64,000 nt of DNA from Roseicyclus marinus. Lineage in GTDB: Bacteria; Pseudomonadota; Alphaproteobacteria; Rhodobacterales; Rhodobacteraceae. The stretch's first letter is position 1. Each line of letters begins with the position of its first letter. A model generated the notes under the pieces. It was not told the DNA's origin and did not search any database. It worked only from the letters and a program-made list of their open reading frames with translations. Below are positions 41,491 to 44,767 of the stretch, in pieces. The stretch lies in the NCBI RefSeq assembly GCF_036322625.1, contig NZ_AP027266.1, positions 2,545,001 through 2,609,000 of the forward strand, read 5' to 3'. Both the position numbers and the translations under genes were made by a program.

Positions 41491-43068
41491 ATGGTCAGGC
41501 AGATGCGCGCCGAAACGCCGCCCGGCGGCCCCGAACATCACCCCGAATGGGGACCGTTCGGCGTACCGCTCTTCGACGGGCCCGAGGCGCAATCGCTGCA
41601 ACGCGTCGGCGTGATCGACATCGGATCGAATTCGGTCCGCATGGTGATCTTTGACGGTGCCGCCCGCAGCCCGGCCTATTTCTTCAACGAAAAGATCCTC
41701 TGCGGGCTTGGGGCCGGCTTTTCCGAAACCGGCCGGCTCAACCCCGAGGGCAAGGCACGCGCGATGGTCGCGCTCAAGCGCTTTGCCCGTCTGGCCGAGG
41801 CGGCGAAGGTCGCGCCGCTTCTGGCGGTGGCAACAGCCGCCGTGCGCGACGCCGAGGATGGTCCCGATTTCCGGGAGGCCGTGCGCCGGGAAACCGGTCT
41901 CGAGATTCGCGTCATCGACGGTACCGAAGAGGCGCGGCTGTCGGCGCAGGGCGTGCTGTTGGGGTGGCCGGGGGCCGAGGGCCTGATCTGCGACATCGGC
42001 GGATCGTCCATGGAACTGGCCGAGCTCGAGGGCAGCGGCAAGGTCGGGCGCCGGGCCACATCGGATCTGGGGCCGCTCAAGCTGATGGGCATCACCGGCG
42101 GCAAGAAGGCGCTGCGCGCCCATATCAAGGCCGAGGTCGCCAAGCTGTCACAGGAATTCGACGACAGCTGCGAGCGGCTGTTCCTGGTCGGCGGGTCTTG
42201 GCGGGCGATTGCGCGCATCGACATGGAACGGCGCGGCTATCCGCTCAAGGTGCTCCACGAATACCGGATGACGCCGCAGGGCATTCTCGACACGATCAAG
42301 TATATCGGCAAGACGGATCTGGAGGCTTTGCGCAATTCGACCGGCACAAGCATGGATCGGATGCGCCTTGTCCCCCATGCCGCCGAGGTGCTGCGCGTTC
42401 TGGTGCGCAAGCTCAAGCCGCGCGAAATCGCCGTATCCTCCTACGGCATCCGCGAGGGGCTGCTGTATGAACAGATGTCCGAGGCCTTGCGCAAGCGCGA
42501 TCCCCTGATCGAGGCCGCCCGCCATTCCGAGGCGCAATCGGCGCGCATGCCGGGCTTTGGCCGCCAGCTCTACCGCTTTGTCGAGCCGCTGTTCCCGCGC
42601 GCCCGTGCCGACAAGAAACGCCTGATCCGCGCCGCCTGCCTGTTGCATGATGTCAGCTGGCGCGCGCATCCCGATTACCGGGCCGAGGTCTGTTTCGACA
42701 ATGCGACCCGCGCCAACCTTGGCGGCATGACCCATGCGGAACGGGTCTATCTGGGTCTGGCGCTCTTGCACCGCTACAAATCGAGCCGGACGGGAACAGG
42801 GTTCGACCCTGCCCTGCTTGATCTTTTGCCCGAGGCGCAGGTGCGGGAGGCCGAAATCCTTGGCCGCGCGATGCGGTTCGGGGCGATGTTCGCGGTGGCC
42901 AATCCATCCGATCACGGGACGCTCGCTTTTCGCTCCAAGCGCCAGGAACTGATCCTGACGCTGCACACCGATGCGGGTCGCGACCTGTTTGGCGAAGTGG
43001 CGCAGGCCCGGTTCAAGGCGCTTGCCACGGCCATGGGTGTCGTCCCCATCGTCAAGGGCGGGGCGTAA
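41491..43068 (+). CDS. ppx: Ppx/GppA-family exopolyphosphatase
   Basis: A 525-residue enzyme that releases phosphate from polyphosphate ends (GppA-type members also act on pppGpp). The ASKHA nucleotide-binding motifs are GVIDIGSNSVRMVIFDG near residue 40, ATAAVRDAEDG, and CDIGGSSMELAEL. The C-terminal half is an HD-type helical domain with LLHDVSWRAHPDYR. An in-frame GTG lies five codons earlier (41476); ATG 41491 was chosen as it has AAAGGG at the right distance. It lies 52 bases after ppk1. Confidence 0.95.
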   Translation: MVRQMRAETPPGGPEHHPEWGPFGVPLFDGPEAQSLQRVGVIDIGSNSVRMVIFDGAARSPAYFFNEKILCGLGAGFSETGRLNPEGKARAMVALKRFARLAEAAKVAPLLAVATAAVRDAEDGPDFREAVRRETGLEIRVIDGTEEARLSAQGVLLGWPGAEGLICDIGGSSMELAELEGSGKVGRRATSDLGPLKLMGITGGKKALRAHIKAEVAKLSQEFDDSCERLFLVGGSWRAIARIDMERRGYPLKVLHEYRMTPQGILDTIKYIGKTDLEALRNSTGTSMDRMRLVPHAAEVLRVLVRKLKPREIAVSSYGIREGLLYEQMSEALRKRDPLIEAARHSEAQSARMPGFGRQLYRFVEPLFPRARADKKRLIRAACLLHDVSWRAHPDYRAEVCFDNATRANLGGMTHAERVYLGLALLHRYKSSRTGTGFDPALLDLLPEAQVREAEILGRAMRFGAMFAVANPSDHGTLAFRSKRQELILTLHTDAGRDLFGEVAQARFKALATAMGVVPIVKGGA

Positions 43069-43107
43069 CACTTCGGTAGGACTTTTCGGTCTAGGGTTCG
43101 CTGAGGC

Positions 43108-43124
43108 TTGGCACGGCAGTTGCA
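43108..43124 (+). promoter_or_regulatory. Sigma-54 promoter, full consensus
   Basis: TTGGCACGGCAGTTGCA matches the -24/-12 consensus YTGGCACGRNNNTTGCW at every fixed position, with GG at 43110-43111 and GC at 43122-43123. The predicted start is near 43135, 27 bases before the small peptide gene. An enhancer-binding protein would be required; none is in the window. Confidence 0.8.
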
Positions 43125-43161
43125 GAGCTTCTGGCAGGTGACCCGGACCGGAGACATCGTA

Positions 43162-43260
43162 ATGAGTGTTCTGAATACCCTTGCAGTATCCCTCGTGTTC
43201 CTCGTGCTCGTTGTGTTCAGTGTCCTGATCTTCGGTTCCGGGTCACTTGCCCCGGCGTGA
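43162..43260 (+). CDS. 32-residue hydrophobic membrane peptide
   Basis: A short open frame (ATG to TGA, 33 codons): starts MSVLNTLAVSLVFLVLVVFS and ends VLIFGSGSLAPA. Residues about 4-25 form a single membrane helix and there are no charged side chains. GGAG about 8 bases before the ATG serves as ribosome site. A full-consensus sigma-54 promoter is upstream and a strong terminator downstream, so it seems to be a one-gene transcript between ppx and proS. I know no family for it. A role as a small membrane regulator under nitrogen or other RpoN control is inference. Confidence 0.68.
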   Translation: MSVLNTLAVSLVFLVLVVFSVLIFGSGSLAPA

Positions 43261-43292
43261 TCCCTCGTCACGCCGATCCTCCCTGTTGGACT

Positions 43293-43321
43293 GGCCCCCG
43301 GAGATATCCGGGGGCTTTTTT
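43293..43321 (+). terminator. Terminator after the small peptide gene
   Basis: Stem GCCCCCGGA / CCGGGGGC with a short GATAT loop, followed by a run of seven T. It is the best rho-independent terminator in the window. Confidence 0.93.
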
Positions 43322-43426
43322 GCAGGGCTTTGCGCAGGATGGCCGACCCCTTTGGGGATCGCCGCCTTGTGAGGCGAAACCCTTTGGCGTATGCGTCGGC
43401 CAACACATCTGGCCAAAGGGTTTCCC

Positions 43427-44767
43427 ATGCGTCTGAGCCGTTATTTCCTGCCCGTTCTCAAGGAAACGCCCTCCGAGGCGCAGATCGTCAGCCATCGCCT
43501 GATGCTGCGCGCGGGCATGATCAAGCAGGCGAGCGCCGGCATCTATTCCTGGCTTCCGCTGGGCTACAAGGTGCTCAAGCGGATCGAGCAGATCGTGCAC
43601 GAGGAACAGATCCGCGCGGGCCATATCCCGATGCTGATGCCGACGCTGCAATCGGCGGATCTGTGGCGGGAATCGGGGCGTTACGACGCCTATGGCCCGG
43701 AAATGCTGCGCATCCGCGACCGGCATGACCGCGACATGCTCTACGGTCCGACGAACGAGGAGATGATCACCGACATCTTCCGCGCGCATGTGGGCAGCTA
43801 CAAGGATCTGCCGCTGACGCTCTATCACATCCAGTGGAAATTCCGCGACGAGGTGCGGCCGCGGTTCGGCGTGATGCGCGGGCGCGAGTTCCTGATGAAG
43901 GACGGCTACAACTTTGATCTCACGAAGGAAGACGCCCTTCACGCCTATAACCGCCACCTGGTGAGCTACCTGCGCAGCTACGAGCGGATGGGCCTGCAGG
44001 CGATCCCGATGCGCGCGGATTCGGGGCCGATCGGGGGCGACGACACCCACGAATTCCTTGTGCTCGCCGAAACGGGCGAGAGCGAAGTGTTCTACGACAG
44101 CGAGATCACCGATCTGCGCTTTGGCGACCGGGAGATCGATTACGATTCGGTCGAACAATGCCAGTCTGTCCTGGAAGAGTTCACATCCCGTTACGCCCGG
44201 ACCGACGAGACCCACGACCCCGAGGTTTTCGCCCAGATTCCTGTGGAGCGTCAAAGGGTTGCGCGCGGGATCGAGGTTGGCCAGATCTTCTATTTCGGGA
44301 CGAAATATTCCGATGCGATGGGCGCCCTGGTCGATGACGGCCAAGGCGGCCGGGTGCCGGTTCACATGGGCTCGCACGGGATCGGCGTGAGCCGTCTGGT
44401 CGGCGCGATCATCGAGGCGAGCCATGACGAGAACGGCATCATCTGGCCCGAGGGCGTGACGCCTTTCCATGTCGGGATCGTGAACCTCAAACAGGGCGAT
44501 GCGGCCTGTGACGCGGCCTGCGAGGATCTTTACAAAGCCTTGTCCGCCAAGGGGTTGGAGCCGCTTTACGACGACCGTGCCGAACGGGCGGGCGCGAAAT
44601 TCGCGACCATGGACCTGATCGGTCTGCCCTGGCGGATCACGGTCGGACCAAGGGGTCTGGGGGCCGGTGTGGTCGAGCTGACGAGCCGCAAGACGGGCGA
44701 GAGCGAGGAGCTGTCGCTGGAGGCCGCCGTGGCCCGCGTGGTCGAGATTTACGCGGCGCACAGGTAA
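43427..44767 (+). CDS. proS: Prolyl-tRNA synthetase (short alphaproteobacterial type)
   Basis: Charges tRNA-Pro. The 446-residue class II enzyme lacks the inserted editing domain, as is normal in alphaproteobacteria. It begins [20 protein letters not shown], then [21 protein letters not shown] (motif 1 region), motif 2 as [20 protein letters not shown], motif 3 as [14 protein letters not shown], and a C-terminal anticodon-binding domain. ATG at 43427 is the family start; upstream codons are not conserved. Confidence 0.97.

Follow-up and report, generated by a model that had tools for sequence, protein, structure and literature searches.

Between the end of ppx at 43068 and proS, whose start codon is most likely the ATG at 43427, the window (the whole 64-kb stretch of DNA analysed here, from a genome assembled as one contig of 3.55 Mb and 99.93% complete; G000) holds a short unit on the forward strand. 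At its head lies a diverged copy of a GGTAGGGAWWSCC box, here GGTAGGACTTTTC (43075..43087, +), recognized through comparison with relatives and regarded below as a putative activator site. It is followed by a sigma-54-like string, TTGGCACGGCAGTTGCA (43108..43124, +), by a ribosome-binding site, GGAGA (43150..43154, +), seven bases 5' of an ATG and kept in the sister genome (G297; a draft, 99% complete), and by an open reading frame (43162..43260, +) for a hydrophobic, predicted single-helix peptide. A sequence check bore out the 33 codons given in an earlier note on this DNA: they are 32 residues plus a stop, with no charged residue among them. The end of the frame overlaps an RNA module resembling SorX and SorY (about 43248..43322, +), its Rfam matches lying below cut-off. 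Within it, the predicted fold has a first hairpin (43253..43275, +) with the stop codon inside; a core, CCTCCCTGTTGGACT (43278..43292, +), presumed to be an anti-Shine-Dalgarno seed, comes next, and an intrinsic terminator (43293..43321, +), with a 10-pair stem (43293-43316) and six T, closes the unit. The string, ribosome site, frame and terminator listed in the earlier note are all present, except that the T run counts six rather than seven. Further 3', beyond the terminator, a promoter-like pair TTGTGA - 17 - TATGCG precedes proS (43367..43395, +); it was picked out by eye with its letters checked, and is absent from the output of a stricter scan. The stretch before proS that includes it (43367-43430; CTTGTGAGGCG ... 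TTTGGCGTATGC) is strongly kept across the genus loci compared, and part of it is an 80% match to its own reverse complement.

The description of the unit as stand-alone holds for the window's species and the sister genome, both of which lack the second small ORF that lies between the peptide gene and proS in five relatives (G305, G296, G298, G300, and G389). This second ORF is also hydrophobic, starts MS(L/T)(F/L)N, and has a GGTAGGGA box of its own, with TANNNT at +40 (L056, L057, L059, L074, and L189). Sitting directly 5' of proS and ending in a terminator, the unit could be taken for a leader peptide and attenuator controlling that gene, yet we regard this as extremely improbable: the ORF has one proline codon, the promoter-like pair for proS sits 3' of the terminator, and the second small ORF intervenes in the five relatives just named.

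The peptide frame itself is conserved. Between the window's genome and the sister genome 4 of its 99 bases differ, all at third positions and all silent, leaving 32 of 32 residues identical; overlapping 99-base segments of ppx and proS average 10.4 changes in the same comparison and 4 of 81 have four or fewer, therefore the low count of the ORF is suggestive, not extreme. For two other pairs (G000-G305 and G296-G298), third positions take 34 of 59 changes (P 1e-4), and second positions 8 of 59 (P 5e-4). Our genus sample comprised 13 genomes, with the ppx-proS gap read in 11 (G299 and G306 stood outside this reading): the ORF is present in nine of these gaps and absent from those of G302 and G304. 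Its length is 31-32 codons across the nine genus loci, with a degenerate and charged peptide in G303 and G295, and a 32-residue homologue with the same neighbours occurs in G389, a member of another genus. The codon changes and the genus loci together agree with a small membrane protein whose frame is kept by selection, and the earlier idea of a hydrophobic-peptide gene between ppx and proS, so short that it is easily overlooked, is supported, its frame being kept in nine of 11 gaps and in G389. Beyond this circle little was retrieved. At E<=0.5, a profile search with the peptide matched in 102 of 394 genomes, its own genome and the sister genome among them; outside the genus we accepted one match as convincing, that in G389 (E 4.8e-6), all others having E 0.0025 or worse. 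With the single peptide as query, 18 of 149 genomes matched at E<=1, one of them through the window's own copy and the other 17 with a best E of 0.06 or worse. The peptide has no match in Pfam and one chance-level match (E 0.1) in NCBIfam. Upstream of proS in named relatives, where the best 80 of 591 stretches were surveyed (up to 900 bases each, some loci being shorter), 12 passed a regular-expression and hydropathy filter, none of them with TCCCTGNNGGAC. One, from Roseicyclus (L093), carries a diverged peptide; the other 11 were, by eye only, not judged homologous. Judging from these comparisons, the peptide gene is probably genuine but lineage-restricted. Tree building began with 16 rows. 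For proS, 14 remained (the motif search lost those of Roseibaca and Natronohydrobacter), with 205 codons, a length set by the G389 locus, which ends there; the resulting tree nests two other genera within the genus, sets G389 next to G296, and leaves forks open. For ppx, 11 rows remained, without G389 and the four named relatives. No order of gain or loss is drawn from either.

On paper, the promoter call of the earlier note was sound. The string TTGGCACGGCAGTTGCA fits the sigma-54 -24/-12 consensus at every fixed position, with correct spacing, and the corresponding pattern, TGGCACGNNNNTTGCW, occurs once in the 3.55-Mb genome (none in the backward control). When the window was shuffled with its dinucleotides preserved, matches averaged 0.02 (2 of 100 shuffles held one), a rate that scales up to about 1.1 strings of TGGCACGNNNNTTGCW type per genome; one such string is unusual for the window and ordinary for the genome, and since chance supplies it about once per genome, the match alone is no evidence. 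A looser pattern, TGGCNNGNNNNTTGC, has 3 matches in the window versus 1.4 expected. As to the sigma factor, the PF04552 model found rpoN in seven of the 13 genus genomes and did not find it in G000, G297, G298, G300, G301 (only 73% complete), or G306, whereas TIGR02395, run on four genomes, found it in G296 and not in G000, G297, or G298. The proposed RpoN control thus fails in the genome for which it was proposed: because no sigma-54 gene was found there, a sigma-54 promoter is very unlikely, and so is a unit dependent on RpoN. The full consensus match, kept in G297 with two of the four spacer bases changed, speaks for such a unit, as does a near match, TTGGCATAGCCTTTGCA, in G296, a genome with rpoN, where by eye the GG/GC and the spacing are kept and two bases of the -24 part changed. 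Against it stand the failure to find rpoN in either of the two genomes holding the full string, the chance rate given above, and a TANNNT -10 at the same spot in relatives. Nor is the string conserved in relatives: outside G297 the consensus is not kept in the other genomes with the peptide, G298 keeping just GG and TTGC, and G305, G300, and G301 showing no sigma-54-like site at the locus (all by eye). The rpoN gene may lie on a replicon missing from both the G000 and G297 assemblies; likewise, because G296 combines rpoN with a near match, an older sigma-54 site may have existed in the genus.

The TANNNT element belongs to a recurrent arrangement. Among 15 promoter copies read, 11 have a box of GGTAGGGA/GGTAGGGAWWSCC type exactly 40 bases 5' of TANNNT, a motif found at 0.0014 per position in the window; the copies are related by descent, and 11 is therefore not a count of independent events. 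For the first ORF, the pair is present in G305, G296, G298, G300, and G303 and not in G000, G297, G295, or G301; it precedes the second ORF in G305, G296, G298, and G300, and both ORFs in G389. From its layout, the pair resembles a -10 element preceded, at about -52 to -40, by an activator site. Neither the window's species nor the sister genome has kept the TA of the -10; the box is diverged in both, and the same spot is covered by the sigma-54-like string. A sigma-70 scan identified no promoter at the locus in the window's species. Exact GGTAGGGAWWSCC strings number 10, in four of six genomes searched (control with the backward pattern, 4), and seven of the 10 lie at the ppx-proS locus; by eye, two of the remaining three fall within genes, and the third comes after a different gene and has no TANNNT at +40. 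This exact-match search of six genomes assigned no regulator to the box.

The 3' end of the presumed transcript carries features of another kind. No Rfam family matches the window at gathering level; below it, the SorX model (RF02784) scores 36.7 bits against a cut-off of 46.6 (E 1.5e-7 in 301 bases) and the SorY model (RF02651) 35.8 bits against 111, and MmgR (RF00519) is not among the window's matches at E<=1. In the predicted fold, the core between hairpin and terminator stays mostly open, apart from a weak helix of three pairs; the stability of this fold has a z of -4.6, with none of 200 shuffles as stable. The same module is present at six of the nine peptide loci compared (G000, G297, G305, G296, G298, and G300), with a conserved core and terminator and TCCCTGNNGGACTGGCCC invariant in all six, and was not found at those of G301, G303, and G295. 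Among the relatives, SorX and/or SorY match at E<=0.01 in G297, G305, G296, and G298, and neither does so in G300 or at the three loci lacking the module; an MmgR match (31.5 of 41 bits) occurs in G296 alone among eight ppx-proS loci scanned. G000 and G297 are identical in the sequence of the first hairpin, G296 and G298 have a different sequence there, and for G305 and G300 no such hairpin is predicted; fold z ranges from -5.6 to -1.8 across the six copies. These SorX/SorY matches and the conserved core favour an RNA role, as the earlier note had allowed in a hedge. One could go further and suppose that the small RNA, or its precursor, is the only conserved product and that the ORF is untranslated. 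Strong RNA features, the overlap of ORF and module, and the degenerate peptides of G303 and G295 would suit this idea, but we hold it to be improbable, given the codon-position bias of the changes, the ribosome site, the kept ORF length, and the persistence of the ORF in two genomes without the module at this locus, G301 and G389.

The module resembles RNAs of three described kinds. SorX inhibits potA translation; it is released by cleavage from the mRNA of an OmpR-type regulator, of which it forms the 3' end, and RNase E matures it to a length of 75 nt (PMC9438474). Like SorX as there described, the window module lies at an mRNA 3' end, has a hairpin, a core CCUCCCUGUUGGAC and a terminator, and measures about 74 nt against the 75 nt of SorX (PMC9438474), and the SorX layout of hairpin, open CUCCCUGUUGGAC and terminator is that of the window copy. 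Unlike SorX, it follows a 32-codon ORF for a small membrane peptide instead of a gene for an OmpR-type regulator, in whose 3' UTR SorX lies; since both the gathering score and the host gene fail, we file it as SorX-like, not as SorX. SorY of Rhodobacter sphaeroides shares the core and terminator arrangement; it differs from the window copy, which is also far from the SorY cut-off, in having its own promoter, and it affects takP mRNA (PMC6238624). The alpha-r8 RNAs (MmgR; SisA-D of Caulobacter) combine a hairpin, a single-stranded CCUCCCU of anti-Shine-Dalgarno character and a terminator, with several siblings per genome under unrelated promoters (PMC12559287). The window module is like them in layout and in having multiple siblings in its genome, and unlike them in that the full 10-mer (TTTCCTCCCT/UUUCCUCCCU), found in G296 and G298, is missing from its copy. 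Release of small RNAs from a 3' UTR is also described in R. sphaeroides for UdsC, from the mRNA of a hypothetical protein (RSP_7527), and for CcsR1-4, from ccaF1 mRNA (PMC9779115, PMC8625941); the presumed origin of the window module is of this kind. A literature search yielded no title pointing to a peptide/RNA locus between ppx and proS, and no paper on MmgR and SorX together.

The siblings are two further genomic elements. The string CTCCCTGTTGGAC occurs at three places, 271443, 1762214, and the window. The first copy stands behind a regulator whose C terminus resembles the one shared by 29 of the family's 30 top SorX loci (the thirtieth, L042, was missed by the motif used for it); the element here, at 271409, is a better SorX candidate than the window copy, its regulator being of OmpR type by eye and by PMC8625941. 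The element at 1762176 (L079), behind a gene that looks LysR-like by eye, is a better SorY candidate than the window copy, with 48.6 bits, and scores 31.8 bits with MmgR. All three copies remain below the SorX and SorY cut-offs, and the overlap of the SorX, SorY, and MmgR models on the same elements suggests one wider family. For CTCCCTGNNGGAC, found at five genome places, two were set aside by eye, 521375 as lying in a long open frame and 1649772 for want of a visible terminator hairpin 3' of it. Across the family, SorX matches at E<=0.1 in 286 of 295 genomes and exceeds the cut-off in 231; in 14 control genomes, 6 match at E<=0.1 and 10 at E<=1, none over the cut-off, and at the latter level weak SorX matches are therefore generic. 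Among loci of the L020-L052 type, at least one genome has a second CTCCCTGTTGGAC element shortly 3' of SorX (e.g. L032 around 1859), and tandem SorX matches were seen in G283, G190, and G022.

Sites complementary to the seed (AACAGGGAGG) number six in the genome, three being the siblings themselves; the other three compare with a control of 4, and there is thus no genome-wide enrichment. Two of these three have a possible start codon a short way 3' of them (L222, ATG at +15; L220, GTG at +18), and one of the two begins 15 bases 5' of the ATG for a 418-residue protein that by eye resembles an ABC-transporter binding protein. The binding-protein gene, at 2785307, is as a target of the module a lead only. 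This lack of enrichment, like the Rfam scores under cut-off and the three of nine peptide loci without the module, would fit a peptide gene with an ordinary terminator, the CCUCCCUG core being a relic of SorX-type RNAs or a chance likeness to them. We consider that reading rather unlikely, though it deserves to be taken seriously; the stretch before the stem, needless for termination, is nevertheless invariant in six genomes, and four relatives have SorX/SorY matches.

The explanation we prefer, with modest confidence, is the mRNA of a lineage-restricted 32-residue peptide that has a SorX/SorY-like sRNA module as its 3' end. By this account, a housekeeping-type or other non-sigma-54 polymerase would make a short mRNA between ppx and proS encoding a single-helix membrane peptide. 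The module, from stop codon to terminator, would then be cut out, probably by RNase E by analogy with SorX, or might alternatively work within the whole mRNA. As in its presumed relatives, it would bind Hfq and expose CCUCCCUG, which could pair with the Shine-Dalgarno sites of targets, the transporter binding-protein gene at 2785307 possibly among them, and block their translation. A stronger version, a dual-function RNA in which the membrane peptide and a sibling of the SorX/alpha-r8 sRNAs both act on membrane transport, is more speculative, and we put it forward only tentatively.

These findings correct a promoter call that looked perfect on paper, although no sigma-54 gene was found in its genome, and point to a short gene of the kind annotation is prone to miss, whose end is likely to be a regulatory RNA. 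Should it be confirmed, this RNA would be a new sibling of the SorX/SorY/MmgR anti-Shine-Dalgarno RNAs, placed on a lineage-restricted peptide mRNA. Given that peptide loci exist both with (six of nine) and without (three of nine) the module, it becomes possible to test whether the RNA was gained or lost and what roles peptide and RNA play separately. The dual-function RNA, if true, would show an sRNA sibling gaining a new expression pattern via a young small-protein gene.
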